This document shows positions 14,137 to 37,438 of a stretch of DNA of 40,991 nt, piece after piece; the first letter of the stretch is position 1; the number at the start of each line of letters is the position of its first letter. This stretch comes from an uncultured Cellvibrionales bacterium. GTDB lineage: Bacteria > Pseudomonadota > Gammaproteobacteria > Pseudomonadales > Porticoccaceae. Location: the NCBI GenBank assembly GCA_913062605.1, contig CAJXWQ010000017.1, positions 1-40,991 of the forward strand. Reading direction: 5' to 3'. Below the pieces are notes generated by a model that searched no databases, was not told the origin of the DNA, and saw nothing but the letters and a program-made list of their open reading frames with translations. Position numbers and translations under genes: made by a program.

Positions 14137-17054
<2,918 letters not shown>

Positions 17055-17137
17055 GAGTCCCATGTATTTGAATAGAAAATGCGCTGTTCAATCAAATAGA
17101 AATAATGGGCATTGGAATAATGATCTCATTGTATTTT

Positions 17138-17162
17138 CCCGCTTACTTAGGGTTGTAGCGGG
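17138..17162 (+). terminator. Inverted repeat after ligA
   Basis: CCCGCT at 17138-17143 and AGCGGG at 17157-17162 form a perfect six-pair stem with a 13-base loop, between ligA and the MFS gene. The following bases TTCATCT are not a real T run, so it may be a weak terminator or a leader hairpin of the MFS transcript. Confidence 0.3.
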
Positions 17163-17195
17163 TTCATCTAAAGGCGTTGTAGGTTTTCTGAGGTG

Positions 17196-18410: not shown

Positions 18411-18463
18411 TAGTCATTCTTAATGATTAATCTATCTTTTAATATTTACTACAGCTAGTCCCG

Positions 18464-19243
18464 TTAGAGCTGATGACGAAATGCCAGTAATGCAGCTGTT
18501 ACCGCCACGTTAAGCGATTCAACCCCATTGCTCATGGGTATGCGAACTTGTGCTGTGCAGAGGTTGTTGACCTTTTTAGAAACGCCTTCTGTTTCATTGC
18601 CCAATACATAGATGATGGGTGTTGCGACCTGAAGCTCACTGAGCGATTGTTTGCTGTGTGAGGACAGGGTGCAGCATGTGACTCCCTGTTTTGTTAGTTG
18701 TGGTAATGCTTGTTCCAGGCTATCACAGTGGATCAGTGTACTTTTAAACAGCGTGCCGGCACTGGCCTTGATGACCAGCGGGGAGATGGCAGCAGTTCCT
18801 TGTTTGGGTAGCAGAATGCCATGGCAGGGGCTGGCGGTGACAGAGCGAATAATCATTCCCAGATTCTGAGGGTTAGTGATCCCATTCAGAGCAATAAGGC
18901 TATAGTTTTCTTCGGGAGGGTTCGCCAGAAAATCGTCCAGTAGTTGGTGATTGGGGCATTCAAGATCGGCTGCGACGCCTTGATCCTGTTTGCCATTACG
19001 AGATATCCGGGAGAGTTCCTGGCGGCTGTGATAAACAACCTCTACTCCGCGGTTTTCAGCTAGGTCGATAATCTGTTTGATAATACCCCCTGGTTTATTC
19101 GAGTCCGCAAGGTGTATGCGGTAGCAGGGGATGTCCATATTCTCTAGCGCTTCGATAACCGGTTTTCGCCCATAGATAGTGAGAAGCCGATCAAAAAAGC
19201 GTTTGCGCTGTAGGTGGTCACTCTTGTCGGTGGCTTGGGGCAT
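18464..19243 (-). CDS. SpoU/TrmH-family RNA 2'-O-methyltransferase
   Basis: A 259-residue SPOUT methyltransferase. The N-terminal substrate-binding part includes YGRKPVIEAL (about 24-33). The three catalytic motifs follow: NPQNLGMIIRS (with the conserved N and R), LGNETEGVS, and IPMSNGVESLNVAVTAAL, which forms the SAM-binding trefoil knot. Enzymes of this family methylate ribose in rRNA (RlmB) or tRNA (TrmH). The length and N-terminal domain resemble RlmB, but the target cannot be fixed by reading. It starts at ATG 19243, 40 bases from and divergent to the DksA-like gene, so the two promoters must overlap the neighbouring leader or coding sequence. Confidence 0.9.
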   Translation of the reverse strand: MPQATDKSDHLQRKRFFDRLLTIYGRKPVIEALENMDIPCYRIHLADSNKPGGIIKQIIDLAENRGVEVVYHSRQELSRISRNGKQDQGVAADLECPNHQLLDDFLANPPEENYSLIALNGITNPQNLGMIIRSVTASPCHGILLPKQGTAAISPLVIKASAGTLFKSTLIHCDSLEQALPQLTKQGVTCCTLSSHSKQSLSELQVATPIIYVLGNETEGVSKKVNNLCTAQVRIPMSNGVESLNVAVTAALLAFRHQL

Positions 19244-19282
19244 GGTCTTAAGTCCGGAGAAAGAACGGGCTATTATACGCCC

Positions 19283-19639
19283 ATGGAAGAATTAACCGAT
19301 AAACAGTTAAGTGGTTTTCGTCAGTCATTGATACAGGTGCGAGAAGAGCTTCATCTGGCGTTAGATATTTCTGAAGAGTCGGGTGAAACAGTTACTTTAG
19401 ATCAATCCAAGGTGGGGCGGCTATCACGGATGGATGCTCTGCAACAGCAACAGATGTCCAATGCCTGTCGGACGGGATACCGCAAGCGATTGCTTGCTGT
19501 TGAGCAGGCTTTGGTTGCACTGGATCAAGGTGATTATGGTTGGTGTGAAAGCTGTGGTGAGTTGATTGATATCAGGCGCTTGGAAGTGCGACCTGAATCA
19601 AGTTTATGTGTAGCTTGTCAGGAGGCAAGTGAAGTATGA
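19283..19639 (+). CDS. TraR/DksA-family zinc-finger protein
   Basis: A 118-residue protein with an N-terminal coiled-coil hairpin whose tip reads VGRLSRMDALQ, followed by a four-cysteine zinc finger: C88-E-S-C91 and C109-V-A-C112. Relatives of DksA bind the RNA polymerase secondary channel and modulate initiation, often with ppGpp. It is shorter than DksA itself (about 150 residues), so it is a paralogue rather than DksA proper. The frame is open to GTG 19214, but that would overlap the opposite-strand gene; ATG 19283 gives the family N-terminus. A TATTAT box at 19271-19276 lies too close to the start for a long leader, so transcription may be near-leaderless or begin elsewhere. Confidence 0.87.
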   Translation: MEELTDKQLSGFRQSLIQVREELHLALDISEESGETVTLDQSKVGRLSRMDALQQQQMSNACRTGYRKRLLAVEQALVALDQGDYGWCESCGELIDIRRLEVRPESSLCVACQEASEV

Positions 19640-19675
19640 ATAGAGGATTATAGGAGTGGGTCTCAGTTTTGTAGT

Positions 19676-19693
19676 ACGTAGTTGTCGCTACGT
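19676..19693. terminator. Inverted repeat between convergent dksA-like gene and pdxJ
   Basis: ACGTAG at 19676-19681 and CTACGT at 19688-19693 form a perfect six-pair stem with a six-base loop, at the meeting point of the two genes and overlapping the pdxJ stop. No good T run follows on either strand, so the terminator call is weak. Confidence 0.3.
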
Positions 19694-20446
19694 TGTCTGT
19701 AACACACGCTTGTATGCTTGAACGGCAGTCCCCAGCCCCATGGCGATGGCATCTACGGTGAGCGCATGGCCAATAGATACCTCGGCTAAACCGGGTATTG
19801 TGGAAAATTTTGCTAGATTGACCAGGTTCAGGTCATGGCCAGCATTAACTCCCAGACCAATATTTAGGGCTAGCTCGGCTGCATCGTAGTGCTGTTGAAA
19901 GATAGTGTTGAGTTCTTCCGGGTTTCCCCAGGCAGCAGCGTAGGGACCGGTGTAGAGTTCAATGCGGTCAGCCCCTACTTGCTTGGCCAGCTCTATTTGA
20001 GTTGGGTCAGGGTCCATAAATAAGCTGACTCTAATATCCAGTGACTTCAGTCGCTCAATCATGGGCAGTAACTGGTCACCCGCCCTAGTGAGGTTAAACC
20101 CATGGTCGGAGGTGAGTTGGTTATCGCTGTCGGGTACCAGTGTGCATTGGTCAGGTAGGGTTTCTTCTGCCAGTTGAACTAACCCCGGGTAACAGCCCTT
20201 GGGTTCAGCGAAAGGGTTTCCCTCAACATTGAATTCAATGTCCTCAAGCGAAGAAACCAGTTGGCTGAGCTGATGTACATCCTTGGGTCGTATGTGCCTC
20301 TGATCCGGCCGGGGGTGCACAGTTATACCGTCAGCCCCATTAGCGAGACACACTTTCGCATGCTCTACCACATCCGGGTAGTTGCCCTCACGAGAATTGC
20401 GAATCAGTGCAATTTTATTGAGGTTGACACTGAGCGAAACGTTCAC
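19688..20446 (-). CDS. pdxJ: Pyridoxine 5'-phosphate synthase PdxJ (GTG start)
   Basis: PdxJ condenses 1-deoxyxylulose 5-phosphate with 3-amino-2-oxopropyl phosphate in vitamin B6 synthesis. The TIM-barrel hallmarks are present: SVNLNKIALIRNSR at the N-terminus, GADGITVHPRPDQRHI with the active-site acid/base loop, EFNVEGNP-like FNVEGNPF, ELYTGPYA, and GLGVNAGHDLN near the end. The open frame extends to 20512 inside the cyclophilin gene. GTG 20446, five bases after that gene's stop, yields 252 residues and the expected N-terminus, so I choose it. No strong ribosome site is visible; translational coupling with the upstream gene is likely. Confidence 0.94.
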   Translation of the reverse strand: MNVSLSVNLNKIALIRNSREGNYPDVVEHAKVCLANGADGITVHPRPDQRHIRPKDVHQLSQLVSSLEDIEFNVEGNPFAEPKGCYPGLVQLAEETLPDQCTLVPDSDNQLTSDHGFNLTRAGDQLLPMIERLKSLDIRVSLFMDPDPTQIELAKQVGADRIELYTGPYAAAWGNPEELNTIFQQHYDAAELALNIGLGVNAGHDLNLVNLAKFSTIPGLAEVSIGHALTVDAIAMGLGTAVQAYKRVLQTT

Positions 20447-20450
20447 GGAT

Positions 20451-21023
20451 TTACTTGCTGTCAACAACTTCAGCTTTAATGATTCTGACAGGGGTCTCCG
20501 GCAGGTTGGCAAAGGGTCCTACAGCTTTGGTGGAGATACGTGAAATCTTGTCAGCTATATTTGTGCCCTGAATGACCTTACCAAATACGGTATAACCCGG
20601 TTGACCATTTCGGGCATTGAGACTCCAGTTGGGTACCACATTGATAAAGAACTGGGCTTTGGCACTGTTCGGGTCAGTTTGTCTTGCCATAGCAACGGTG
20701 CCCTTCTCATTTTTCAAACCATTGGTGGATTCGTTGACGATAGAGGCTCCACTGGGTTCGCGCATAGAAAGTTCTGGGGTATAGCCTCCAGCCTGAATCA
20801 TAAAGCCTTGTATGACTCGATGGAAAATAAGGCCATCGTAGTACTGGTTCTGAACATAATTAACAAAGTTTTCTACTGTTACTGGAGCTTTGTCTGGGTA
20901 GAGCTCTAGCCGAATGTCGCCTAGATCTGTAGTGAGCAAGACCTGAATGGGTGTTGATGTCTCTGCCTGTGCTGTAGCCAGAAAAGTAGTCAGAAATACT
21001 ATGGAAAAAACTCTTTTAAACAT
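20451..21023 (-). CDS. ppiA: Periplasmic cyclophilin-type peptidyl-prolyl isomerase (PpiA-like)
   Basis: A 190-residue prolyl isomerase with a signal peptide (about 1-20, ending AQA) and a cyclophilin domain. Catalytic-core motifs are LIFHRVIQGFMIQAGG and AKAQFFINV, with GYTVFGKVIQG in the C-terminal half. The size matches E. coli PpiA. It speeds proline isomerisation during folding in the periplasm. ATG 21023 overlaps the stop of the SH3-domain gene (TAATG). The longer open frame to 21122 lacks a signal peptide at its start and is rejected. It is part of a minus-strand run ending with pdxJ. Confidence 0.93.
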   Translation of the reverse strand: MFKRVFSIVFLTTFLATAQAETSTPIQVLLTTDLGDIRLELYPDKAPVTVENFVNYVQNQYYDGLIFHRVIQGFMIQAGGYTPELSMREPSGASIVNESTNGLKNEKGTVAMARQTDPNSAKAQFFINVVPNWSLNARNGQPGYTVFGKVIQGTNIADKISRISTKAVGPFANLPETPVRIIKAEVVDSK

Positions 21024-22930: not shown

Positions 22931-22978
22931 AGTTGAAAACCCAAAAAGTTGAAATTACTGTGAAAATAAGGCCATAAT
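22931..22978 (+). promoter_or_regulatory. Candidate promoter and AGTTGAAA direct repeats of the six-gene operon
   Basis: The 230-base divergent gap holds TTGAAA at 22949-22954 and CATAAT at 22973-22978 with an 18-base spacer, about 65 bases before the thiamine-diphosphate enzyme start. AGTTGAAA occurs twice, at 22931-22938 and 22947-22954, 16 bases apart, the second copy overlapping the -35 box. That could mark a regulator site. A separate TATAAT lies at 22910-22915 with no good -35. The ribosome site AAGGA is at 23030-23034, eight bases before ATG 23043. Confidence 0.4.
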
Positions 22979-23042
22979 GCGGAAACCGGTACAACAGATT
23001 TAACAAAGCGCCATAACTTTCTGAAAAATAAGGAAAATAATT

Positions 23043-24848
23043 ATGGGTGTTATGCAGGTTAGCAAAGAACTGGAGCAGGAGGCTGAGGGAGAGGCTGAAC
23101 TAGGGGACTTGTTAGTCTCTTATTTAGAGCAGCTTGGTGTGGAATATGTGTTTGGCATTCCAGGCGGAGCCATTGAGCCACTGTACAATGCATTAGCTCG
23201 TAGCGAGCGTAGAGGTGGCCCTCGTGCGGTAATTGCCCGACATGAGACAGGTGCGGCTTTTATGGCAGAGGGTTACGCCATAAAAACAGGAAAGCTGGGT
23301 GTTTGTTGTGCCACTACAGGCCCAGGAGCCACCAATTTGATCACGGGTGTGGCGTCAGCCTACGAGAATAATATTCCCATGCTGGTTATTACTGCTCAGA
23401 CAGCACTTAGTGATTTTGGTCGAGGTGCAGTGCAGGAGTCATCTTGTACCGGTATTAATACGGTTGGTTTGTTTGAGTATTGCACCCGATACAATACGCT
23501 AGTTTCCCACCCGAAACAGTTACAACATAAGTTGTCATCCGCTGTAATGACAGCGACGCATTCTCCTACAGGGCCTGTTCATTTAAGTATCCCTATGGAT
23601 GTGATGAAAAGCCCTGTTTCATCGTCAGAACCAGATTTCAATCTTGATCGACTTCTTGATAAACCATCACTGCTTGATGATGTGGCAGTGGGGCAATTCT
23701 ATAATGAGTTACTCAATGCAAAAAACCCTATTTTTGTTATAGGCGATGAGGCCAGTGAAGCCATCGGCAGTATCTTGAGTGTAGTTGTAAAAATGCAGGC
23801 GAAGATTATTGTGACGCCTCATGGTAAAGGCCTTGTCAGCCCGTATCACCCGCTGTTTAGGGGCGTGATAGGTTTTGCTGGGCATGAAAGTGCACGTGAG
23901 GCATTGTCTGATCCAAGTGTAGATTTAGTTGTCGCGGTAGGAACGAGCTTTGGTGAAGCCGCAAGTGATGGCTGGAATTCTGAATACTTCCTGACAAAAA
24001 AGCTAATTCATGTCGAAGCAACAGAAGAGCATTTACTGCGTACGCCAATGGCCAAACTACATGTCAGGGGGCGGCTCTCAACAATCTTTGAACAGCTGAA
24101 TGAAGACTTAGGTGAAATGCAGGGTAAGGAAGGGAAAGTTGTTTCCATGCCAGTTGCAGTCGGTGGTTCAAACCTCAAATCACGTCGATATTTTAGCTTG
24201 GATGACCCTGATGCCTATCATTCTGATCAAGCGCCAATTAAACCACAGAGGTTGATGTGTCTGCTCCCACAACTGTTCCCTCCCAACACCTGTTATTTGG
24301 CAGATTCTGGGGCTAGTTTTGCTTGGGCTGCGCATTATTTGCATCCTTATGATAGGAGGATTGAAGGAAAGCGTGACGCCCATGGCGGTGTGTATCGTTC
24401 TGCTCTTGAATTCGGTTCTATGGGTTGGGCTATTGGTAGTTCTATCGGTGTTGCTCTGGCTGACCGAAAAAGCCCCGTTGTTTGTATTACTGGCGATGGC
24501 AGCATGTTAATGGTGGGCCAAGAAATTACTGTGGCCATACAAGAAAAACTTCCCGTAGTATTCGTGGTTTTGAATGATAGTTGTTATGGCATGGTGCATC
24601 ATGGGCAGTCCCTTACTGGTGCAGAACCTATTGGGTGTGAATTGCCAGAAGTTGATTTCGCAGCATTTGCCCGTTCTATGGGAGTGGATAGCCACATAAT
24701 AACTTCGCCAAAAGACCTGCTGGCTATTGATGTTGGTTATATTTGTAAACGAGAAGGGCCCACACTCCTTGATATCAGGATAGACCGAAATGAAGTTCCT
24801 CCTATGGGGGTTCGGATAAAATCCCTGACAAAAGAAAATGACGAATAA
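23043..24848 (+). CDS. Thiamine-diphosphate enzyme of the acetolactate synthase superfamily
   Basis: A 601-residue three-domain ThDP enzyme. The PYR domain (about 22-190) has FGIPGGAIEPLY and the catalytic glutamate E68 in ARHETGAAFMAEG. The central domain spans about 200-360. The PP domain has the GDG motif at 484-486 and its partner N511 in VVLNDSCYG, giving the metal-diphosphate site. The active-site glutamate and cofactor motifs are intact, so it should decarboxylate a 2-oxo acid or ligate/cleave a C-C bond. It differs from housekeeping IlvB: no small regulatory subunit or branched-chain genes lie nearby, and two citrate-synthase-like genes follow. The next gene starts inside its last codons (11-base overlap). 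The substrate is unknown. Confidence 0.88.
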   Translation: MGVMQVSKELEQEAEGEAELGDLLVSYLEQLGVEYVFGIPGGAIEPLYNALARSERRGGPRAVIARHETGAAFMAEGYAIKTGKLGVCCATTGPGATNLITGVASAYENNIPMLVITAQTALSDFGRGAVQESSCTGINTVGLFEYCTRYNTLVSHPKQLQHKLSSAVMTATHSPTGPVHLSIPMDVMKSPVSSSEPDFNLDRLLDKPSLLDDVAVGQFYNELLNAKNPIFVIGDEASEAIGSILSVVVKMQAKIIVTPHGKGLVSPYHPLFRGVIGFAGHESAREALSDPSVDLVVAVGTSFGEAASDGWNSEYFLTKKLIHVEATEEHLLRTPMAKLHVRGRLSTIFEQLNEDLGEMQGKEGKVVSMPVAVGGSNLKSRRYFSLDDPDAYHSDQAPIKPQRLMCLLPQLFPPNTCYLADSGASFAWAAHYLHPYDRRIEGKRDAHGGVYRSALEFGSMGWAIGSSIGVALADRKSPVVCITGDGSMLMVGQEITVAIQEKLPVVFVVLNDSCYGMVHHGQSLTGAEPIGCELPEVDFAAFARSMGVDSHIITSPKDLLAIDVGYICKREGPTLLDIRIDRNEVPPMGVRIKSLTKENDE

Positions 24849-25656
24849 AAATAAACAAGAAACGATAACAACTAAAATCTGGAATGAAATTCCAGAGGAT
24901 GACAACCCTTTCGCCGCTAAAGTTTGCTATTGCTCGGGCTTTGATGTTTACGGAGACCTTTTGGGTAAAGCTAGCTACATCGAATATCTGTATTTACTCT
25001 TTAAACTAGAACCCCCATCACAAAATCATGCATTACTTCTGGAAGGGCTAGCCATAGCATTGGCCAATCCAGGTATACGTGATCATAGTGTGCGCGGAGC
25101 AATGAATGCAGGTGTAGGTGGTTCCACACATGCTTCGGCATTGATGGCAGCATTGGCTGTAGGTGCTGGAAACCTTGGTGGAGGTCGTGAAGTTTATAAC
25201 ATGGTCAAGTACTGGGAGCAGTGTGGTACCGATATAAATACTTGGGAGCAGATGATAAAAGAACCCCCTGTTGAAGAACGAGCGGATGTTTGGCAGCCCA
25301 TGGAGCATGCCCCTGGTTTTGACCCAAATGGCGACAGTTGTACATTGCCAGTTAGGCAGGTCTTGGAGCATATGGTAAAAATCGGCGAAAGTGAAAATCT
25401 TAAATGGCTGCAAGCCAATAGAGAGCGCTTGGAGAAATTTGCAGAATGCCCCCTCGCTATGTCAGGTGTTGCAGCAACAGTTTTGTATGAATTACAGCTA
25501 AGTTCAGATCAAGCTGAAATGTTATATCTGTTGTTGAGGCTGCCTGGTGCTGCTGTTCATAGCTTAGAGCAAGAGAAGCTTGGGTGGAGACGTTATCCAT
25601 TTTTTGGCGATGGATTGAAGTTACAAAAATATAATCCAACAGAGAACATGGGATAA
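24838..25656 (+). CDS. Citrate-synthase-fold protein A (citryl-CoA-lyase-like, first of a pair)
   Basis: A 272-residue protein that aligns by eye with the C-terminal citrate synthase domain of citryl-CoA lyase and ATP-citrate lyase. RDHSVRGAMNAG matches the ADHGPxVSGAxN region, and its H83 equals the first catalytic histidine. LYLLLRLPGAAVHSLEQ matches the closing helix. The second catalytic histidine (GxGH) is replaced: PGFD with D162. The aspartate position reads PLAMSG (205-210), without Asp. So only one of three triad residues is visible. It shares a gapless block with the next protein and is probably its heteromeric partner. The ATG lies inside the upstream gene, indicating translational coupling. 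The reaction is unknown. Confidence 0.78.
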   Translation: MTNKNKQETITTKIWNEIPEDDNPFAAKVCYCSGFDVYGDLLGKASYIEYLYLLFKLEPPSQNHALLLEGLAIALANPGIRDHSVRGAMNAGVGGSTHASALMAALAVGAGNLGGGREVYNMVKYWEQCGTDINTWEQMIKEPPVEERADVWQPMEHAPGFDPNGDSCTLPVRQVLEHMVKIGESENLKWLQANRERLEKFAECPLAMSGVAATVLYELQLSSDQAEMLYLLLRLPGAAVHSLEQEKLGWRRYPFFGDGLKLQKYNPTENMG

Positions 25657-25659
25657 CAG

Positions 25660-26466
25660 GTGAAAAAAGAAAAGGTGTTTTCAGAGTATGAAGATAATTG
25701 GGAGACATCTATGGGTGCTATTTTTCCTGGAGAAAAGGTTGTTCTCAGAGGGAAAGATGTTTTAAAAGAATTAAAAGATTATCGGTGGATTGAATACTTG
25801 TTATTTGGTATTACAGGAAGGGATTCGCCTCATCTTGCCCGTTTAATTGAAGGAATGTGGCTGATTTGTACAAGTTTTCCTGACCCTAGATTATGGAATA
25901 ACCGTATTGCTGCTTTAAGTGCAACAACTAGATCAACTGGTGTTTTGGGTTCTGCGGGAGCTCTGGCTGTTTCTGAAGCCACAATATATGGTCTTAAGCC
26001 TATACAAGGTGTGTCTGATTTTTTGTATCGAACATCTGAAAAAATTGCTGGGGGGCAATGTTTGGAAGATGTGGTGAAGTCTGAAGTAAAAAAATACCGA
26101 GGAATCTATGGTTATGGCAGGCCAGTTGCTGATAAGGATGAACGAGTTGGCCCGCTTATGGAGTTTGCACAATCTATGGGTGCAGGTGAGGGCCCATATA
26201 CTAAGTTAGCTTTTGATGTCGATAATTATTTAGGTTCTTCACGTTTGAAATACAGAATTAATGCTTCTGGGGTAGTGGCAGGTCTACTTGCAGATGAAGG
26301 TGTAACACCTAAAGAGTTATACCACATAGCAACACTTACGTTTACGGCGGGCGTTATTCCTTGTTACATCGATGCACTAGAAAAGCCGGAGGGTGCATTT
26401 TTTCCTCTTCGAACATCCCGAGTAAATTATGAGGGAACAACAGCATTTAGAGTCTGGGGACAATAA
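25660..26466 (+). CDS. Citrate-synthase-fold protein B (paralogue of the preceding gene, GTG start)
   Basis: A 268-residue paralogue of the preceding protein. WIEYL and LIEGM line up with YIEYL and LLEGL there, and the following segment ending in ALAV aligns without gaps. At the position of H83 it has W79. The later citrate synthase motif GYGHxV appears as GYGRPV with R154 for the histidine. The aspartate region reads RINASG (199-204). All three canonical catalytic residues therefore look absent. GTG 25660 follows the upstream stop by three bases, with GGGA at 25650-25653 as a weak ribosome site. The DNA is noticeably AT-richer than the housekeeping genes. It may be a regulatory or structural subunit, or one half of a composite active site. 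Confidence 0.75.
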   Translation: MKKEKVFSEYEDNWETSMGAIFPGEKVVLRGKDVLKELKDYRWIEYLLFGITGRDSPHLARLIEGMWLICTSFPDPRLWNNRIAALSATTRSTGVLGSAGALAVSEATIYGLKPIQGVSDFLYRTSEKIAGGQCLEDVVKSEVKKYRGIYGYGRPVADKDERVGPLMEFAQSMGAGEGPYTKLAFDVDNYLGSSRLKYRINASGVVAGLLADEGVTPKELYHIATLTFTAGVIPCYIDALEKPEGAFFPLRTSRVNYEGTTAFRVWGQ

Positions 26467-26468
26467 AA

Positions 26469-28601
26469 ATGGCTAATAAAAAGTATCTAATAGTCTTACC
26501 AATGTTTTTCTTTTCCTTGTGTTCACTTGCTAATGGAGAAGATGCAGAAGAAGATTTGATGGCACTCTATGGAGGCGAAGAGTTCATAAGTATTGTAACA
26601 GGTGTTGAACAGCCCCTTCATAAAGCCCCTGCAGTTGTGTCTGTATTGACGAAAAAAGATATTGAAAGAATAGGCGCGACAGATATTGATGAGATTTTAG
26701 AAACGGTTCCTGGTCTTCATGTTGCCAGAGATGCGAAGGGCTATAACCCAATGTATGTGTTTCGGGGTATCAGTGCTACAGAAAACCCTCAGGTTTTAAT
26801 GTTAATCAATGGTATCCCGCTCACCAATTTATTTCAGGGAGACAGGAATTTGGTGTGGGGTGGAATGCCGGTTCAAGCAATTGAAAAAATTGAGGTAATT
26901 AGAGGGCCTGGTTCAGCACTTTATGGGGCAGATGCATTTGCTGGTGTGATTAATATTGTTACTAGAGAAGCTGATGGTAAAGAGAGTTTTGAAGCTGGTG
27001 TTCGCTATGGAACACACAATACGAAAGATTATTGGTTAACTGGTGGTGGTTCAGTTGGAGAGCTAAAGTACTTTGGCGCATTGGAAAGCCATAAAACTGA
27101 TGGTTTTGACGAAAAAATAACGTCTGATCAGCAATCAGTATTAGATTCACTTATTGGAACAAGCGCCTCGCTGGCTCCCGGTTCGGTGAATATGGAAAGA
27201 AAAAATTTAGATGCGCGTCTAGAGCTTGCTTATAAAAACCTGAAGCTGAGAGCGGGCGCACAAATTAGAGATGATGCCGGTGATGGTGCTGGATCAGCTC
27301 AGGCGCTGGCTGAAGATAATACCTTTGACAGTAACAGATTAAATGTAGACTTAACTTATGAAAATAAAGAATTTACAGAAAATTTAGCAGTAAAAATTCA
27401 AACAAGTTATTTACAAACAAGCCAAGAAGTAAATGGAGATTTAGTACTATTTCCAGCGGGTACAATTATTCTAGATCCAGTTTTTGGTCCTATAGGTCCT
27501 TTCCCAGATGGCGTAATAGGAACACCAGAAGTTAAAGAACGGCATACCCGGTTTAATTTCTCTAGTTTTTATACTGGAATAGACCGGCATGAAGTAGGTA
27601 TGGGTGCCGGTTATTATCATGGCGATCTTTATGAAGTGAAAGAAAAAAAGAATTTTGGAGAGCATCCGTTAGGTGGGTTTATATTGCCGGGTGATCCCGT
27701 AGTTGATGTTACTGATACACCCCTTGTATTTTTGACAGAAGGAAAACGCGAAAACTCATATGCTTTTCTTCAAGATGTTTGGCAGTTTGCAAATGATTGG
27801 GAGCTAACGGCAGGGGTGCGTTATGACCATTACTCTGATTTTGGTGACACTGTAAACCCTCGCTTGGCTTTGGTGTGGTCAACAACAAGAAACCTAACCA
27901 CTAAATTACTTTACGGTGAAGCTTTTAGGGCGCCTTCCTTTGCGCAACAAAGAGCAATTAATAATCCTTTAGTACAGGGAAACCCTGAACTAGACCCTGA
28001 AGAACTAAAAAGTTACGAGCTCGCATTTGATTATCGTCCAAGTCACGACCTTGTCTTTAATTTGAATATGTTCTACTACAAATGGAAAGATATTATTCAA
28101 TTTGTGCCCGTTGGCGTCGGTGCTGCTGAAGCTCAAAATGATGGTGAACAAACTGGCCATGGTGTGGAGTTTGAGGTGAGTTGGCAGGCTTTACGTGATT
28201 TGGAGCTTTCTAGTAATTTTTCCTGGCAAAAGTCTGAAGATAAAAACCTAGATGCAGATGCGGCCTATTCCCCAGAGAAGCAGCTGTATATGGCGGCAAA
28301 CTGGCAGCCTGCAGAGTTGTGGAATATCCATGTTCAGGCTAATTGGGTCATGGATCGTAATCGGGCAGCAGGTGCAGATGATTTTCGTTCAGATGTAGAT
28401 AATTATGCACTAGTTGATCTAACCATAAGGCGTAAATCATTATGGGATCACGTAGATGTTGCCTTAATAGTCAAAAATCTCTTTGATGAGGATGCTAGGG
28501 AACCAAGTCTTGCCGGGGGAGTTGGTGTTCCTGTTCCTATTGAGGATGATTTGCCTTTGCCTGGACAGACAGTGTTGGGTGAAATTCGCTATCACTTTTA
28601 G
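26469..28601 (+). CDS. TonB-dependent outer membrane receptor
   Basis: A 710-residue receptor with a signal peptide (about 1-23) and a plug domain. The plug includes ERIGATDIDEILETVPGLHV and the conserved IEVIRGPGSALYGADAFAGVINIVT, given here as a landmark at about 137-163 (RGPGSALYGADAF). A long beta barrel follows, ending in a terminal phenylalanine (EIRYHF), the usual outer-membrane insertion signal. The barrel holds FRAPSFAQQ and ELDPEELKSYELAFDY, both typical. It brings a ligand across the outer membrane using TonB energy. The ligand is unknown, and no siderophore genes are present. It begins two bases after citrate-synthase-like B, so substrate or product of those enzymes is a reasonable guess. 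The DNA of the first 1.6 kb is AT-rich. Confidence 0.93.
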   Translation: MANKKYLIVLPMFFFSLCSLANGEDAEEDLMALYGGEEFISIVTGVEQPLHKAPAVVSVLTKKDIERIGATDIDEILETVPGLHVARDAKGYNPMYVFRGISATENPQVLMLINGIPLTNLFQGDRNLVWGGMPVQAIEKIEVIRGPGSALYGADAFAGVINIVTREADGKESFEAGVRYGTHNTKDYWLTGGGSVGELKYFGALESHKTDGFDEKITSDQQSVLDSLIGTSASLAPGSVNMERKNLDARLELAYKNLKLRAGAQIRDDAGDGAGSAQALAEDNTFDSNRLNVDLTYENKEFTENLAVKIQTSYLQTSQEVNGDLVLFPAGTIILDPVFGPIGPFPDGVIGTPEVKERHTRFNFSSFYTGIDRHEVGMGAGYYHGDLYEVKEKKNFGEHPLGGFILPGDPVVDVTDTPLVFLTEGKRENSYAFLQDVWQFANDWELTAGVRYDHYSDFGDTVNPRLALVWSTTRNLTTKLLYGEAFRAPSFAQQRAINNPLVQGNPELDPEELKSYELAFDYRPSHDLVFNLNMFYYKWKDIIQFVPVGVGAAEAQNDGEQTGHGVEFEVSWQALRDLELSSNFSWQKSEDKNLDADAAYSPEKQLYMAANWQPAELWNIHVQANWVMDRNRAAGADDFRSDVDNYALVDLTIRRKSLWDHVDVALIVKNLFDEDAREPSLAGGVGVPVPIEDDLPLPGQTVLGEIRYHF

Positions 28602-28643
28602 GAATGAAGTATTGCCGACAAAGAGCGGTGAGGAAAAACACGG

Positions 28644-29588
28644 ATGAAGCAGAATTTTTCTTTTATAGCTAGGCGGTTGGGTAGTAGTGCCTATTTGCCA
28701 GTTTTGTTACTCGTCGTTCTATCGCTATTTAGCTTTAGCACAAGAGGGCAGAGTGCCGAGTTACTGGTGATGTACCCGGAGGTTCGAGCCCCATTTTCAA
28801 AAATATTTCGGGATATTTCTTCTGGGGCTGAAGAGGGCTTTGTGGGTGATGCTAGTTCGGTAGCTATTAGAGAAGGTGAAGAAGTAGGTTCACTTCTCAC
28901 CCGTAAGAAGCCTGATGTAGTACTAGCGCTTGGCAAGCGGAGCCTTTCAAGTCTTAAGGCCTCAGATAAAAATGTGCTAGTTGTATTGGGCGCGGTAAGC
29001 GAAGATCAGTACGACTATCCAGGAATATCGATGGTGCCAGATCCTGAAGTAATACTGGATAAACTGATATTGTTGTCTCCTTCCGTCAAGCAGGTTCATG
29101 TGGTCAAAAAGTCCCGTGGTGTTGATGTGCAACTGGAAGGTGCTAGCGAATACTTAACAGAACACGGCAAAAAACTGATTGTTCATGAGAGTAGAGATAT
29201 ACGCGAGGCGGCCAATATCTATGCAAAATTAATAGAAGAAGCGAATACTGGCGATTCGATTTGGATATTACAAGATGGCTCCTATGTTAATAGTGCCATT
29301 TTTTCACTGTTACTCGATGCCGCATGGAGTAAAAATCTAGTTGTCTTTTCATCAAACCCTCTACATGTAAAGCGTGGAGCTCTCTTCGCGGTTTACCCTA
29401 GTAATAAGGACATGGGGGAAAGCCTTGGTAAGTTAGCAAATCAAGTTCTTAGTAATGAAGCGAAACCGGGTCTGCAACCTTTACGAGATGTTTTGGTTGC
29501 CGTTAATGAGAGAACGGGTAATCACCTTGGACTTGCATTGACAACAGAAGTAAAAAATAACGTCGACTTGCTGTTACCTGCGAGGTAA
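28644..29588 (+). CDS. Orphan periplasmic ABC-type substrate-binding protein (ABC_sub_bind family)
   Basis: A 314-residue two-lobed binding protein. The signal sequence spans about 1-36 and ends in GQSA, with no lipobox cysteine. Conserved stretches are VVLALGKRSL, VVLGAVSEDQYDYPGISMVPD and DSIWILQDGSYVN, typical of the PF04392 ABC_sub_bind family. There is no permease or ATPase gene beside it, so it is unlikely to serve a classical importer. It sits between the TonB receptor (42 bases) and the sensor kinase (five bases), which suggests that it presents a ligand to the kinase's periplasmic domain. GAGGA at 28630-28634 is the ribosome site. Confidence 0.85.
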   Translation: MKQNFSFIARRLGSSAYLPVLLLVVLSLFSFSTRGQSAELLVMYPEVRAPFSKIFRDISSGAEEGFVGDASSVAIREGEEVGSLLTRKKPDVVLALGKRSLSSLKASDKNVLVVLGAVSEDQYDYPGISMVPDPEVILDKLILLSPSVKQVHVVKKSRGVDVQLEGASEYLTEHGKKLIVHESRDIREAANIYAKLIEEANTGDSIWILQDGSYVNSAIFSLLLDAAWSKNLVVFSSNPLHVKRGALFAVYPSNKDMGESLGKLANQVLSNEAKPGLQPLRDVLVAVNERTGNHLGLALTTEVKNNVDLLLPAR

Positions 29589-29593
29589 AACAG

Positions 29594-32500
29594 GTGGAGG
29601 CTAAACCAAACAAGAAAAAGCCGGGGATGAAGTTCAGAAATCAACTCAGTTTGATTTTTGTCGTCGGTATTTTTGTTATGGCGGTAACAACCTCTATTGC
29701 AGTCAGTAATATTTCTAGTCAAATTGTGCGTGACCGAGAGATTCAGCAAGGCTTGCAGGTGACGGATTCACTGGCGAAGCAGAGCGAGCTGGCTTTGCTT
29801 TATCACAGCAAAGAAAGTGCCAAAGATATCGTAGATACAGCCTTGAATTTTCCTGGAGTTAAGGCGGTATCTATTGTCACTGAAACGGGCACCGTATTAC
29901 ACACTGGAGGCGAGATCGTTACCCAAGCTCCCTTCTATAAGCCCTCTGTCGCAAAGATGGTTCACGAAGATAATGATTATTGGTCGTTTTCATCCCCGGT
30001 AGTGGCTGGAGCTTCACAAGACAGTGTTTGGGGTGAGCTTTACGGTGAAGATGTAGAGAAAGAAGTCTCGCTAGGTTATATAACGGTACTGATGGGGAAG
30101 GATACCGTTGTCCTGATGGAGCGGAGTATTCTTAGGGGTAATCTGCTGATTTCTCTATTGGTTGCTGTTGTCCTCCTATTGCTGTTATTAGGTATTTCAC
30201 GTCGATTAACCAAGCCGCTTGAAAAGCTTGCGGCTACCATGAAGCAGGCAGAAGAAGGCGACTCGGTCATTCGGGCTGATGTGGGCGGTCCCGTGGATAT
30301 CACCGATATGCAACAGGCCTTTAATTCCATGATGGAAGCTCTAGAAAATCGGCAGAAGGAGTTGATGCGTGCTATGTCGGCTGCTCTAGAGTCTGCTCGT
30401 GTTAAAGGTGAGTTTGCAGCCAATGTTACTCATGAGCTACGCACGCCAATGAATGCTGTGTTGGGGATGCTTGATTTGCTCATGACCATGGGCCTCAGTG
30501 CTAAACAGCTTGAGTATGTGGAAACGGCAAAAACCTCAGGCGAAAGCCTGTTGCAACTCATTGATGAAATTCTTAACTTCTCCCAGATCGATTCCAATAA
30601 TATTTCTATCGTTAAAGATGATTGTTACATTCAAGAATTGTTAGATGATGTTATCAACTTGCTCGCTAATCAGGCGCTTAAGAAGAATTTAGACTTTGGT
30701 TACGTTATTTCTGATGATGTTCCCAGAATGATTCAATCAGACTCTTCGCGCCTCCGACAGGTGCTGATCAACCTGGTTGGTAACGCCATTAAGTTTGCTG
30801 ATGTTGGTGAAGTATCTATTCACATGGATGTTCTTAATGTAGAAAATCCATCCTCTGAGAATGAATTGCTGGTTCGGTTTGAGGTTCGTGATTCTGGTAT
30901 TGGAATTAATGCAGAAGACCAACAGCGCATCTTTGATGCCTTTACTCAGGCAGACTCATCAAGTACCAAGGAATATGAGGGAACCGGTCTTGGGTTGGCC
31001 ATTAGCAAGCAGATAGTCGATTTGATGGGTGGAGAGATCTCAGTATCGAGTCAGCCAGGGATGGGGAGCTCATTCTGGTTCACTGTACCTACTCCGAGGT
31101 CAGATGTCAGCAAACCTGATGAAGCAGCTGTGCCGGCTTTTTCAGGCCTAAATGCACTATTGGTGGATGATAGCGAGATAGTCCGAGAATTTGGTGCCCA
31201 GCAGCTTGAAAAAAAGGGTATTGACTGTACCACTCTGGATACAGGTATTAAGGCGCTTGACGTGATTCGTGATATGTCAGCAAACGGCAGTAGCCTGGAT
31301 GTTCTAATTGTTGATGAAGACATGCCTGGACTCAAGGGAATGGATTTTCTAAAGTTGACACGGGAGGAGCCCTCCCTGAAAAACACCACTATTCTGATGC
31401 TGAGTAATCCTTGGACAATGGGGGATATACATAACGATTACAGTATGACCCGACTGAATAAGCCGTTGCGTCCGAAAGAGATAAATGCCTGTCTTGAGAA
31501 GCAATTGTTGGGGCAGGGTGAGACCGAAAAACTAGAGTCACAGCCAAAGACAATAGAGAAGCTCTACAGTCGACCCAAGAAAATTCTGGTGGTTGATGAT
31601 AACCGCGCTAATCAGCAGGTAGCTATTGGTATGCTGGAGCGAATGGGGTGCCGGTGTGAATTGGCGTCTACGGGCAAGGAGGCTGTTGAAGCAATTATTC
31701 GCAACCAATTTGATGCTGTTTTGATGGACTGTTATATGCCGGTTGTGAACGGCTACGATGCCACTCGCCAAATCAGAATGTATGAGGGCGGGGAAAATGC
31801 AGATAACCGTGTACCCATCATTGCCATGACAGCAAATAATACGCAGGTTGAGGTGGATCGCTGTATGGATGTAGGGATGGATGATTTCCTCTCCAAACCT
31901 TTGCGTATTGATGAGCTAACAAATACCTTGGCCAAATGGGTGCCCAGAGACTTACCTGAAGTTTCTGCCGATAGTGACAGTCAGCTAGGTGAACTTAGCT
32001 CAGATGAGCCTTCCATCGTGCACAGCAGTGCCAGTTACGACCCCTTGGTCATTCAAGAACTAAAAAATGGTATTGGGGAAGTTGTCATTTCGATGATCGA
32101 GGCTTTCCTTGAGGACACACCCGTTTATTTGCAGTCATTAAAAGCGGCAATTGCTCAAACAGATACTAAGCAGGTTAGGGAGTTGGCGCATACTGTTAAA
32201 GGGAGTGCATCAAATTATGGCGCCTACCAGGTCGTTGAGCTTTCTCGATTACTGGAAGAAAAAGGTGCTGCGGCAGAGTTGTCGGGTTCAGAAAAATTAT
32301 ATGAGAACTTAGTGGAGGCATATGCCAAATTAGGGAGAGATTTGGAAGAGTACATTCTGGCAGCTGACGACAGTACCAAAGGGCGTGAGAAGGGGCATCA
32401 TTTGTTGATTGTAGATGATGACCGCTCCATGCGGCTTGCACTGAAAAATGTGTTTAAGTCAGAAGATTATGTCATCGAAGAAGCCAGTAACGGAATGCAT

Positions 32501-34075
32501 GCTATTTCCATATGCCAGCGAAGAATGCCAGATTTGGTGTTGATGGATGCCATGATGCCGGAAGTTGATGGTTTTACGGCCTGTGAGCGTATTCGAGAGC
32601 TACCAAATGGCGCGGATACACCTGTGCTAATGATTACCGCCCTTGATAACGAGGAATCCATTGTAAAAGCCTTTGCTGCTGGAGCGACTGACTTTATTCC
32701 CAAGCCCATTCACTTTGCCGTGCTGAAGCAGCGTGTGTCTCGTCTCATTCAGGCAAACAAGGTAGAGAAACATGTGAAGCAGCTCGCTTACCACGATCAG
32801 TTGACAGGGCTTCCTAACCGGACGAACCTGATGCAGCAGCTTCGGGTAATGGTGAATCGCGCCCAGCTGGAAGAGAAAAAAGTAGCGATACTATTTCTTG
32901 ATTTAGATAGGTTTAAATTAATCAATGATACCCTTGGGCATGATGCGGGTGACCTGCTGCTTAAAGCAGTATCCGACCGGATTCGCCGATGTGTCCGGAA
33001 TCAAGACTTTATCGCCCGTTTGGGTGGAGATGAATTTACAGTAGTGCTTGAAGGCGTCACGGACCAAGAAATTGTGTCTAAAATTGCAGCTAAAATCTGT
33101 GATGCCCTGAGCCAGCCATTTGTGTTCCTTCAGCAAGAAATGTTTGTTACTACCAGTATAGGGATATCCATGTTCCCTAATGATGGGGCGGATATCGGCA
33201 CTCTGATAAAGCATGCAGATTCAGCCATGTTTCGCGCCAAAGAACAGAGAAATGGCTATTGTTTCTATGTGCAGGGAATGGAAGATGAAATTGCTCGGCG
33301 TATGGAGCTGGATAGAGAGTTACGCATGGCGATTGGTGCTAATGAGTTAGTGCTGTATTACCAGCCTCAGATTGATTTGGCTACAGGTGAAGTAGTGGGT
33401 GCGGAAGCATTGATCCGTTGGAATCATCCGAGACACGGATTGGTGATGCCCGATACATTTATCCCCTTGGCTGAAGAGTCTGGGCTTATTAACCAAGTTA
33501 GTGACTGGGTGTTGGAAGAGGCCTGTCGGCAAATACAGGCTTGGAGTAATAGTGGAAAAGAGTTGCTCAAGGTTGCCGTGAATATGTCCAGTAAGGATAT
33601 TCAAGCAGAGGGTTTTAATGACAAACTGAGCAGAATACTAGAGCAGTATGACGTTAACCCCAATAGGTTGGAGCTGGAAATTACTGAAAGTACCTTGATG
33701 GAAAATCCGGAAGAGCTTGAAGGGGAATTGAACGCTATGAGGGAGATGGGGCTGACTCTGGCGATTGATGATTTTGGTAGCGGTTTTTCTTCACTTAATT
33801 ACTTGAAACGGCTACCTGTTGATGTGTTGAAAATTGACAGAATGTTTATCCGAGATTTAGAAGAAGATGAAAGTGATAGGGCGATTGTCACCGGTATTGT
33901 TGCATTGGCTACCAGTATGGGGCTTGGCACCGTGGCTGAGGGGGTTGAGACTGAATACCAATATCGTCTCCTCCAAAAGTTAGGTTGCGATACTTGCCAA
34001 GGCTACTATTTTAGTAAACCAATACCGGTTGCAGATTTTGAAGAGAAGTTCTTTAAACAGGAAGTTATTATCTAA
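29594..34075 (+). CDS. Giant hybrid sensor kinase with three receivers, Hpt, GGDEF and EAL domains (GTG start)
   Basis: A 1493-residue inner-membrane signalling protein. Membrane segments at about 17-38 and 184-203 flank a periplasmic sensor domain, followed by HAMP. The kinase core has H280 in THELRTPMN and an ATPase domain with N, G1 and G2 boxes (NAIKFAD, DSGIGI, GTGLGLAI). Three receivers follow, with acceptor aspartates D574, D712 and D985; the Hpt domain (H866) lies between the second and third. The C-terminus holds GGDEF (1144-1148) with an inhibitory RxxD site (R1135-D1138) and EAL (1271-1273). Both c-di-GMP motifs are intact, so synthesis and breakdown are possible. GTG 29594 has GAGG eight bases upstream. 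It closes the six-gene operon. Confidence 0.95.
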   Translation: MEAKPNKKKPGMKFRNQLSLIFVVGIFVMAVTTSIAVSNISSQIVRDREIQQGLQVTDSLAKQSELALLYHSKESAKDIVDTALNFPGVKAVSIVTETGTVLHTGGEIVTQAPFYKPSVAKMVHEDNDYWSFSSPVVAGASQDSVWGELYGEDVEKEVSLGYITVLMGKDTVVLMERSILRGNLLISLLVAVVLLLLLLGISRRLTKPLEKLAATMKQAEEGDSVIRADVGGPVDITDMQQAFNSMMEALENRQKELMRAMSAALESARVKGEFAANVTHELRTPMNAVLGMLDLLMTMGLSAKQLEYVETAKTSGESLLQLIDEILNFSQIDSNNISIVKDDCYIQELLDDVINLLANQALKKNLDFGYVISDDVPRMIQSDSSRLRQVLINLVGNAIKFADVGEVSIHMDVLNVENPSSENELLVRFEVRDSGIGINAEDQQRIFDAFTQADSSSTKEYEGTGLGLAISKQIVDLMGGEISVSSQPGMGSSFWFTVPTPRSDVSKPDEAAVPAFSGLNALLVDDSEIVREFGAQQLEKKGIDCTTLDTGIKALDVIRDMSANGSSLDVLIVDEDMPGLKGMDFLKLTREEPSLKNTTILMLSNPWTMGDIHNDYSMTRLNKPLRPKEINACLEKQLLGQGETEKLESQPKTIEKLYSRPKKILVVDDNRANQQVAIGMLERMGCRCELASTGKEAVEAIIRNQFDAVLMDCYMPVVNGYDATRQIRMYEGGENADNRVPIIAMTANNTQVEVDRCMDVGMDDFLSKPLRIDELTNTLAKWVPRDLPEVSADSDSQLGELSSDEPSIVHSSASYDPLVIQELKNGIGEVVISMIEAFLEDTPVYLQSLKAAIAQTDTKQVRELAHTVKGSASNYGAYQVVELSRLLEEKGAAAELSGSEKLYENLVEAYAKLGRDLEEYILAADDSTKGREKGHHLLIVDDDRSMRLALKNVFKSEDYVIEEASNGMHAISICQRRMPDLVLMDAMMPEVDGFTACERIRELPNGADTPVLMITALDNEESIVKAFAAGATDFIPKPIHFAVLKQRVSRLIQANKVEKHVKQLAYHDQLTGLPNRTNLMQQLRVMVNRAQLEEKKVAILFLDLDRFKLINDTLGHDAGDLLLKAVSDRIRRCVRNQDFIARLGGDEFTVVLEGVTDQEIVSKIAAKICDALSQPFVFLQQEMFVTTSIGISMFPNDGADIGTLIKHADSAMFRAKEQRNGYCFYVQGMEDEIARRMELDRELRMAIGANELVLYYQPQIDLATGEVVGAEALIRWNHPRHGLVMPDTFIPLAEESGLINQVSDWVLEEACRQIQAWSNSGKELLKVAVNMSSKDIQAEGFNDKLSRILEQYDVNPNRLELEITESTLMENPEELEGELNAMREMGLTLAIDDFGSGFSSLNYLKRLPVDVLKIDRMFIRDLEEDESDRAIVTGIVALATSMGLGTVAEGVETEYQYRLLQKLGCDTCQGYYFSKPIPVADFEEKFFKQEVII

Positions 34076-34185
34076 GTCTACCTTTGCTTCTGTCATGGGT
34101 TCTGTGACCTAAAGCCTTGAGTTTTTCTCCTACCTTTACTGCCTTGTGTGAGATAATCAGTTTTTACCCTCAGCGTAGTTGCATC

Positions 34186-34809
34186 ATGAGTCAGTTTTTC
34201 TCTATACACCCTGAAAACCCACAGGCAAGACTTGTTCGTCAGGCGGTTGAAATTATTCGCAAAGGTGGAATCATCGTTTACCCAACGGATTCGGCTTATG
34301 CTCTTGGGTGTCATATTGGTGATAAAAAGGCACTGGATAAAATTCGTCAGATTAGGCAATTGGATAAAAACCACAATTTTACACTGATGTGTCGTGATCT
34401 ATCGGAACTGTCTGTTTATGCCAAGGTGGACAATCAAATGTACCGTTCACTAAAGGCGCATACGCCGGGACCCTATACCTTTATTTTGGAGGCAACCTCT
34501 GAGGTCCCTCGCAGACTAATGCATGCCAAGCGAAAAACCATTGGTTTGCGGGTGCCAGAGAATGCGATTGCACTGGCCTTGCTGGAGGAGTTGGGTGAAC
34601 CCATTATGAGTGTCACCTTGATTATGCCGGGTGATGAATACCCTCTGACTGATCCTTATGATATTCGAGATTTGTTAGAGCATCACGTGGACTTGGTTGT
34701 TGAAGGAGGCTACTGCGGTCTTGAACCAACTACGGTGGTAGACCTCACCGGTGAAGCACCTGAAGTTACTCGACAAGGTATGGGACAGTTTGATGATTTT
34801 CAGAGTTAA
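34186..34809 (+). CDS. yciO: YciO/TsaC-type (Sua5/YrdC fold) protein
   Basis: A 207-residue protein of the YrdC fold. The nucleotide-binding region reads IRKGGIIVYPTDSAYALGC, and TIGLRVPENAIALALL and EPIMSVTL follow. The family includes L-threonylcarbamoyladenylate synthase, which makes the t6A tRNA precursor. The N-terminus MSQFFSIHPENPQ and the length point to the YciO branch, whose own activity is less well established. The frame opens at 34117, but ATG 34186 gives the family start. It is followed by scpA after 175 bases. In the 110 bases between the kinase stop and this start I see no clear terminator or promoter. Confidence 0.9.
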   Translation: MSQFFSIHPENPQARLVRQAVEIIRKGGIIVYPTDSAYALGCHIGDKKALDKIRQIRQLDKNHNFTLMCRDLSELSVYAKVDNQMYRSLKAHTPGPYTFILEATSEVPRRLMHAKRKTIGLRVPENAIALALLEELGEPIMSVTLIMPGDEYPLTDPYDIRDLLEHHVDLVVEGGYCGLEPTTVVDLTGEAPEVTRQGMGQFDDFQS

Positions 34810-36610: not shown

Positions 36611-37438
36611 ATGTCTGAAAAATTACAAAAAGTACTGGCTGCCGCTGGTTATGGTTCACGCCGTGAGCTTGAAAAGTGGATTGCTGATGGTCGTGTTACT
36701 GTTAATGGTAAGGTGGCAAAACTCGGTGATCGAATATCACTGGATGATGCCGTTTCTGTAGATGGTAAGCGCGCTAAGCTTCCTGCCAAAGACCAGCGAA
36801 TCCGTGTGTTGCTGTACAACAAGCCCGAAGGCGAAGTTTGTACTCGTTCTGATCCTGAAGGGCGAAAAACAGTATTTGAACACTTGCCTCGCTTGAAAGG
36901 CGAGCGGTGGATTGCCGTGGGTCGTTTGGATATCAACACGACTGGGTTGCTTCTTTTCACTAACAACGGTGAGCTGGCCAATAAATTAATGCATCCGTCT
37001 TCCAGAATAGATCGTGAGTATCTGGTTCGGGTACACGGTGCTGTTGATGATGATATGTTGAAGCGGCTTCGCGAAGGTGTTCTGCTCGAAGATGGCATGG
37101 CAAAGTTTAGTGATGTTGTGCCTGGTGAGAGAGTCGGTACTAACGGTTGGTATACCGTGGCACTGATGGAGGGTCGAAACCGCGAAGTCAGGCGATTGTG
37201 GGAATCCCAGAATGTCGAAGTTAATCGTCTTAAGCGTGTGAGGTTTGGGCCTATTTTTATGCCCTCTTATACCCGTCGTGGGCAGTGGGTGGAGCTTGAT
37301 GAAAAAGCACTCAATGACCTATTGGTAACAGTAGATATGAGGGTGGCTAAAAAACAAAAACGACTCTTGCCCGATGATAAAGTGCGTAGGGATAGGCAGT
37401 TAAAACGACTCCGTTCTAAAGGGCCGAGGTCTAAATAA
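36611..37438 (+). CDS. rluB: 23S rRNA pseudouridine synthase RluB
   Basis: A 275-residue RsuA-family pseudouridine synthase. The S4 RNA-binding domain is at residues 3-50 (LQKVLAAAGYGSRRELEKWI). The catalytic aspartate is D107 in GRLDINTTGLLLFT, and GRNREVRRLWE is the later conserved block. RluB modifies a uridine in helix 89/90 of 23S rRNA. The C-terminal 35 residues are lysine/arginine-rich. The gene ends the scpAB operon, with a clear hairpin terminator 18 bases after the stop. Confidence 0.94.
   Translation: MSEKLQKVLAAAGYGSRRELEKWIADGRVTVNGKVAKLGDRISLDDAVSVDGKRAKLPAKDQRIRVLLYNKPEGEVCTRSDPEGRKTVFEHLPRLKGERWIAVGRLDINTTGLLLFTNNGELANKLMHPSSRIDREYLVRVHGAVDDDMLKRLREGVLLEDGMAKFSDVVPGERVGTNGWYTVALMEGRNREVRRLWESQNVEVNRLKRVRFGPIFMPSYTRRGQWVELDEKALNDLLVTVDMRVAKKQKRLLPDDKVRRDRQLKRLRSKGPRSK

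Follow-up and report, generated by a model that had tools for sequence, protein, structure and literature searches.

The DNA analysed here, a 40,991-nucleotide stretch that we call the window, is contig C17 of a 2.17-Mb genome, assembled in 47 contigs, from an uncultured bacterium of the Porticoccaceae. It carries six plus-strand open reading frames (ORFs) whose products would together make and sense an acyloin-type molecule. The first (23043-24848) encodes a thiamine diphosphate-dependent enzyme, designated ThDP, a putative acyloin (alpha-hydroxy-beta-keto acid) synthase. It is followed by CsA (24838-25656) and CsB (25660-26466), two subunits with a citryl-CoA lyase fold that lack the citrate synthase catalytic triad, by a TonB-dependent outer-membrane receptor (TonB, 26469-28601), by a periplasmic binding protein of family PF04392 (SBP, 28644-29588) that may serve as a kinase co-receptor, and by a 1493-residue hybrid kinase (HHK, 29594-34075) with the domain order sCache_4-HAMP-HisKA-HATPase-REC-REC-Hpt-REC-GGDEF-EAL. 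ThDP and CsA overlap by 11 bases, and the following gaps measure 3, 2, 42 and 5 bases. An earlier note, made from the sequence alone, had given these six ORFs, their coordinates and their spacing exactly as we found them, and the families it named for the ThDP enzyme, the TonB receptor, the binding protein (ABC_sub_bind) and the cyclic di-GMP (c-di-GMP) hybrid kinase were borne out by Pfam. The spacing of the genes suggests a single transcript. Upstream, a weak candidate sigma-70 promoter (TTGAAA-18-CATAAT, 22949-22978, plus strand) matches 10 of 12 consensus positions; the note had proposed a promoter region there, but such matches were not enriched in the scanned upstream region (16 against 21.8 expected in shuffled sequences).

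The gene set in other genomes

The six genes are kept together in many genomes. We scanned the best 80 of 280 stretches of named genomes that encode a CsA relative. In these loci, many of them cut by contig ends, ThDP was labelled in 76, CsB in 78, TonB in 71, and SBP and a GGDEF/EAL gene in 50 each; among the 43 loci that reach 20 kb or more, the corresponding figures were 43, 43, 42, 36 and 36. All six genes stood in the same order on one strand, unlabelled ORFs being ignored, in 41 of the 80 scan loci and in 17 of 24 loci from relatives. The loci occur in Porticoccaceae/SAR92, Marinobacter, Hahella, Cycloclasticus and Methylococcaceae, and the closest to the window lies in a Porticoccus metagenome-assembled genome (L037, CsA 94% identical). 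Cultured bacteria with the complete set include SAR92 clade bacterium H231 (L052) and MOLA455 (L053), and Hahella ganghwensis DSM 17046 (L115) carries the enzymes. Within the genus the distribution is patchy, with CsA in 9 of 16 other genomes. The order itself varies elsewhere: ThDP-TonB-CsA-CsB-SBP-HHK in L036 and L183, TonB-CsA-CsB-ThDP-SBP-histidine kinase in L227-L230, and divergent arrangements in L062, L093 and L157.

Co-occurrence was measured in a class sample of 369 gammaproteobacterial genomes. CsA had matches in 52 of them at an E-value of 0.001, 41 of which reached the cut-off of 1e-49 or better; SBP was present in 46 (cut-off 1e-40) and ThDP in 48 (1e-120). CsA and SBP were found together in 36 genomes, CsA only in 5, SBP only in 10 and neither in 318 (odds ratio 229, p 2e-35, a significance inflated by genome relatedness). 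The counts for CsA and ThDP were 39 with both, 2 with CsA only, 9 with ThDP only and 319 with neither, and those for ThDP and SBP were 40, 8 with ThDP only, 6 with SBP only and 315. All three genes were present in 34 genomes, and at least one in 54. In ten CsA genomes the SBP match lay on another contig or, in G113, about 13 kb away. Contig ends make it likely that CsA and SBP belong to one assembly-split locus in G226, G213 and G313, whereas in G362, G134 and G363 the halves are truly separate, since CsA and SBP lie inside different contigs.

Same-genome controls gave a similar picture. Of the 40 class-sample genomes with CsA, we took the 20 that had long contigs and picked by hand, in each, one further stretch of about 20 kb lying more than 40 kb away from CsA. 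Kinases were labelled by BLAST with pieces of the window kinase, and distant ones may have been missed. The 20 CsA stretches contained TonB in 18 cases, SBP in 16, a kinase in 17 and a GGDEF/EAL gene in 15, against 0, 0, 3 and 4 in the 20 control stretches. Across all 40 class-sample CsA stretches, 34 carried a kinase or GGDEF/EAL gene. We therefore reject chance neighbourhood, on the grounds of both the controls and the co-occurrence. The putative synthase and receptor genes are linked or co-inherited, as in autoinducer systems. The earlier note had joined the three enzymes with the receptor, the binding protein and the kinase into one proposed system, and had named neighbourhoods in which the two trios never meet as the finding that would speak against it. 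The opposite was found: the trios travel together, the set is kept while its order shuffles, and control stretches lack it, which strongly supports a single system.

Comparison of the window with its relatives shows that the genes of the set have diverged unequally. Five of the operon proteins are 89-97% identical to those of L013, with TonB (26469-28601) at only 81%. In L015, CsA (90%) and TonB (89%) are close to the window, and CsB reaches 49%. In L014, CsA is 85% and ThDP 68% identical, the latter being closer to other relatives (76%). The operon genes thus seem, judging from these identities, to have been exchanged one by one among relatives, as they would be if strains differed in signal and receptor type.

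The borders of the set were also considered. TsaC (34117-34809) was rejected as a seventh member because the downstream genes differ in other genera. The flanking genes vary among several genera that carry the set (L022, L026, L027, L029), a further sign that its cohesion exceeds chance. A known RNA element in the window was likewise rejected, as no Rfam family reached its gathering threshold there. Elsewhere in the window, the seven housekeeping genes checked at 5690-20512 and 36611-37438 encode CcmF, CcmH/CycH, SMC, ZipA, NAD-dependent DNA ligase, PdxJ and a pseudouridine synthase, and an eighth surrounding gene (39803-40945) encodes an amidohydrolase. A record titled Planctomycetota (L099), which may reflect transfer or a binning error, contains ThDP-CsA-CsB and no TonB, SBP or kinase in a 20.8-kb stretch.

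A candidate acyloin synthase

The ThDP protein carries all three TPP domains according to Pfam. Of the 56 NCBIfam models it matched, 25 were listed, and it fell below the cut-off of every one of these: the best, acolac_lg, scored 282.7 bits against a cut-off of 538.35, and a ScyA-related model 261.5 against 1000. A family profile built from 31 members and ranked against solved structures scored highest with BbmA (446 bits) and CsmA (386), followed by acetohydroxyacid synthase I (324) and an ancestral catabolic acetolactate synthase (294). By profile score, ThDP would fall in the same branch as the CybE-type acyloin synthases BbmA and CsmA, and a classical acetolactate synthase was rejected as its identity, given the NCBIfam scores below cut-off and the closer profile match to BbmA and CsmA. 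The glycine at BbmA position 484 is kept in the family (G521 in 106 of 111 sequences). At this position BbmA and CsmA have Gly and both acetolactate synthases shown have Gln, and the same position is mutated in the BbmA G484F structure (8xod).

According to the accessible part of one study, both CsmA and its partner enzyme are homologous to CybE (PMC12395478). There, CybE performs an acyloin condensation of ketoisovalerate with 4-hydroxyphenylpyruvate, and CybF couples the product to coumaroyl-CoA (PMC12395478); CybF is named a 3-oxoacyl-ACP synthase in the available text of another (PMC8777810). The BpmA of the former, as far as its accessible text goes, is presumably the BbmA of the PDB.

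Paired subunits with a citryl-CoA lyase fold

Neither CsA nor CsB has a Pfam match at an E-value of 0.001, and their best scores with NCBIfam citryl-CoA lyase models (39.7 and 40.3 bits) are far from the cut-off of 245. Their profiles nevertheless match the citryl-CoA lyase 6hxp (E 6.4e-19 for CsA, 2.9e-14 for CsB). Modelled with AlphaFold2 as one tethered chain, the pair gave a mean pLDDT of 95.6 and a pTM of 0.93, with 6hxp as the best structural match (E 5.5e-9, TM 0.83 by target length). Because the paired model is confident, CsA and CsB likely form a heterodimer, although the tether itself favours contact. CsB adjoins CsA in all 77 scan loci in which both are labelled.

Alignments to 6hxp served to place the His, His and Asp that we take to be the catalytic residues of the citrate synthase superfamily. 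Among 122 CsA sequences, the first His position holds Leu in 75 and His in 11, the second holds Pro in 104 and never His, and the Asp position holds Ser or Thr in 106 and never Asp. In 120 CsB sequences, the first position is Pro in 75 and never His, a one-residue loss removes the second His, and the third is Ala or Ser in 88 and never Asp. With the triad gone, citrate synthase chemistry is unlikely, and ordinary citrate chemistry was rejected for both subunits. The earlier description of the pair as citrate-synthase-like enzymes thus stands for the fold, as seen from the 6hxp profiles and the model, but hardly for the chemistry. Compared with citryl-CoA lyase and citrate synthase, CsA and CsB share the fold and a remote sequence homology, whereas they are encoded by two adjoining genes, are modelled as a heterodimer and have no catalytic triad. 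Other residues are almost invariant: PGxR, PGF and E244 in the CsA sequences, PDxRxWxN, GYGRP and DER in those of CsB. This conservation suggests a working site retained for a different chemistry.

A variant locus points to what this chemistry may be. In L216, the place of CsA and CsB between ThDP and TonB is taken by a KAS III gene (L216:4694-5683, minus strand) and a gene for a 131-residue protein without a Pfam match (L216:5668-6060, minus strand), and in L215 a methyltransferase fills the same place; both genomes are without a strong CsA match. CybF, too, belongs to the KAS III type, and this analogy therefore suggests that CsA-CsB carry out a CoA-dependent second step. Alternatively, CsA and CsB could be non-catalytic pseudoenzymes that scaffold or regulate ThDP, like the regulatory subunit of acetohydroxyacid synthase, the rest of the system working as we propose. 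The loss of the triad in both subunits and the fusion of ThDP to CsA in a single 886-residue ORF (L169:7676-10333, plus strand; L140 covers the same place) would fit such a role. The near-invariant residues, in about 120 sequences, and the substitution, even if seen once, by an enzyme such as KAS III would not, and we hold the pseudoenzyme explanation to be rather unlikely.

Tailoring genes in related clusters

The earlier note had left two options, a nutrient-sensing catabolic system or a signal-molecule system. Genes inserted within the clusters of relatives bear on this choice. We surveyed 144 loci, some genomes being represented twice (for example L013 and L037), for non-core ORFs of at least 170 residues in the interior of the cluster. 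There were 17, of which 11 encode decorating or reducing (tailoring) enzymes: an SDR (L092, L103, L170, L175, L176), a carbamoyltransferase (L092), an O-methyltransferase (L075, L076), a sulfotransferase (L035), an amidotransferase of the Asn-synthase type (L181) and a vanadium-haloperoxidase-like protein (L150). Most of these enzymes have hydroxyl or keto groups as their targets, such as an acyloin offers. Further such genes adjoin the core, for a carbamoyltransferase in L031, an O-methyltransferase in L177 and an EryCIII-like glycosyltransferase in L087. Neither the six core genes nor the 17 interior ORFs include an inner-membrane transporter. The CsA-like gene of L178 has as its neighbours genes for an acyl-CoA ligase, a 3-hydroxyacyl-CoA dehydrogenase and a thiolase.

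Under the catabolic option, an external compound would be captured and sensed, then cleaved by ThDP and CsA-CsB, while c-di-GMP would hold the cell near its food. A TonB receptor and a binding protein do adjoin enzymes of C-C bond chemistry, citryl-CoA lyases cleave, as their family name says, and one relative (L178) has CsA next to the ligase, dehydrogenase and thiolase genes named above. However, the interior genes are mostly decorating enzymes, the closest relatives of ThDP synthesise, and an inner-membrane transporter is absent from the genes surveyed. Nutrient catabolism therefore seems quite improbable to us, and because the interior genes are mostly tailoring genes and no inner-membrane transporter accompanies them, signal biosynthesis is the favoured one of the two options.

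Receptor, binding protein and kinase

The TonB protein has the plug and barrel domains (Pfam), and its closest solved receptors are the colicin I receptor Cir and BtuB. One could therefore imagine that the product is a metal chelator, an antibiotic or another public good that is recaptured, with the kinase monitoring its level and signalling only secondary. Chelates are the usual cargo of TonB receptors, Cir and BtuB being the closest solved ones here, and tailoring enzymes fit antibiotics too. The set nevertheless comes without an ABC permease, a reductase or an exporter, and a c-di-GMP or kinase output is retained in 34 of the 40 class-sample stretches. We regard the public-good explanation as unlikely.

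The top structural matches of the SBP model (pLDDT 88.9) are the Trp-bound protein 3lft and CD0873, which we take to be a tyrosine binder; the LuxP-LuxQ complex ranks 13 in the list of matches and XylFII-LytS 48. SBP and a kinase carrying the same sensor domain are no more than two genes apart in 92 of 95 cases; L034, L051 and L148 are the exceptions. We infer from this proximity that SBP is the co-receptor of the sCache_4 kinase. All 13 phosphorelay and c-di-GMP motif strings that we take to be the catalytic ones were located in HHK, which scores 319.5 with the NCBIfam LuxQ model (cut-off 1200).

The kinase is rearranged in relatives. Its counterpart may be split into a kinase gene and a REC-GGDEF-EAL gene; in L051 SBP and kinase share one ORF, after which REC-GGDEF-EAL has a gene of its own; and L180 and L181 have the sensor joined to PAS-GGDEF-EAL, with no kinase between, and paired with SBP. 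The window HHK therefore joins parts that are separate elsewhere. The joined ORF of L051 (L051:13963-17730, plus strand, 1256 residues) comes from a metagenome assembly, in which a sequencing error is possible. Other kinases may also stand beside the enzymes, as do a CHASE8 kinase and GGDEF-EAL genes in L106 and L109.

Several further arrangements were observed. In L231-L234, outside the class, ThDP-CsA-CsB adjoin a protein of about 1730-1770 residues, with a different sensor in L231. Chemosensory genes for MCP, CheW and CheR flank the cluster in L152, L153, L157, L160, L163 and L164, and chemosensory genes do so in a second lineage, L147-L149 (MCP and CheB in L147). Finally, four genomes have SBP, with a matching sensor kinase beside it, and no CsA or ThDP match: G269 (L213), G288 (L208), G289 (L217) and G342 (L210). 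These are possible listeners without a synthase.

Proposed mechanism and significance

We propose, with somewhat better than even confidence, that the operon is a self-contained system of signal synthase and receptor, in which an acyloin-type product is self-sensed and the outcome is relayed into c-di-GMP. In the scheme that we infer, ThDP would join two 2-oxo acids, one of them probably aromatic or bulky, into an acyloin or alpha-hydroxy-beta-keto acid. The CsA-CsB heterodimer would then join this product to a CoA thioester, or acylate it with one, as CybF does in furanolide synthesis, and in other lineages tailoring enzymes would decorate it, so that the product is probably a diversified, acyloin-derived molecule. 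The compound may leave the cell, re-enter the periplasm through the TonB receptor and bind SBP; the complex of SBP and ligand would set how active the sCache_4 hybrid kinase is, and the His-Asp-Hpt-Asp phosphorelay of HHK would control the fused GGDEF-EAL part and hence c-di-GMP.

Several observations weigh against this proposal. Of the 17 interior ORFs, six fall outside the tailoring enzymes: one is an antisense artefact (L036), one FliK (L066), one has no match (L162), and three are transposase-like (L148; L147, which BLAST groups with L148; and L072, which stays below the cut-off). The operon of the window itself has no tailoring gene, and some clusters have housekeeping genes as neighbours, among them those for fumarase, LytB, FBPase and TsaC; phosphatidylserine decarboxylase and 2-oxoacid dehydrogenase subunits are also found beside some of them. 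No exporter was identified, and the replacement of CsA and CsB by KAS III was seen in a single locus (L216). No kinase or GGDEF/EAL gene was found in 6 of the 40 class-sample stretches (L163, L167, L168, L169, L170, L184); SBP is present elsewhere in the genome for five of these and not for the sixth, G193 (L170). Some relatives use other kinases without SBP, namely PAS/GAF kinases in L171 and L172 and, in L231, a PknK-like Ser/Thr-kinase/AAA/GAF/histidine-kinase protein with a NarL-type regulator. The presence of other kinases means that c-di-GMP is the common output and not the sole one.

Going one step further, these loci could define a new and widespread class of signal, ThDP-derived, decorated according to lineage and built with a triad-less heterodimer of citrate synthase fold, with its own TonB receptor and with SBP and a kinase leading to c-di-GMP, present in about one tenth of the sampled gammaproteobacterial genomes; we consider the chances for and against this to be evenly balanced. 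Searches of an open-access library, outside which most subscription papers fall, brought up no description of this gene set, as judged mostly from titles and the opening lines of abstracts. If the proposal is true, it would add a new chemical language to marine and other gammaproteobacteria, in which biosynthesis is coupled to c-di-GMP within one operon, and relatives are predicted to make differently decorated versions. The analysis also brings to light a two-gene family of citrate synthase fold without the textbook catalytic residues, and ThDP-CsA-CsB offers a genome-mining handle for new natural products.

Relation to characterised systems

The enzymes are closest to CybE-CybF of furanolide (cyanobacterin) synthesis. 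Both systems have a ThDP enzyme of the same branch followed by a partner that uses a CoA thioester, as far as the accessible parts of the sources describe it (PMC12395478, PMC8777810), and the variant locus L216 even has a KAS III. They differ in that CsA-CsB stand here in place of CybF, that a receptor, SBP and kinase share the locus, and that this operon is without an acyl-CoA synthetase.

As a synthase linked to a sensor, the operon recalls alpha-hydroxyketone quorum sensing by CqsA/CqsS and LqsA/LqsS, where a dedicated synthase for a signal of the hydroxyketone type is linked to a sensor kinase (PMC3376566, accessible text). CqsA and LqsA are pyridoxal phosphate-dependent enzymes, whereas the synthase candidate here depends on thiamine diphosphate, which places the operon outside that class; in addition, the available portion of that article names no TonB receptor or binding protein (PMC3376566). 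With LuxP-LuxQ, the system for autoinducer-2 (AI-2), the operon shares a class I binding protein paired with a hybrid kinase, and the complex is found at rank 13 of the SBP fold list. The kinase nevertheless scores well under the LuxQ cut-off (319.5 against 1200), and synthase and output are different.

NspS-MbaA norspermidine sensing provides a parallel in the sensing part. In the accessible text describing it, a periplasmic binding protein hands a self-made molecule to a periplasmic sensor, which in turn controls c-di-GMP (PMC5646818), an arrangement that L180 and L181 approach with their sensor-PAS-GGDEF-EAL proteins. The ligand route and the enzymes are different, and in the window the output passes through a histidine kinase phosphorelay. 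The operon nonetheless combines, as NspS-MbaA does, a binding protein with a periplasmic sensor and a GGDEF/EAL output, a likeness of architecture.

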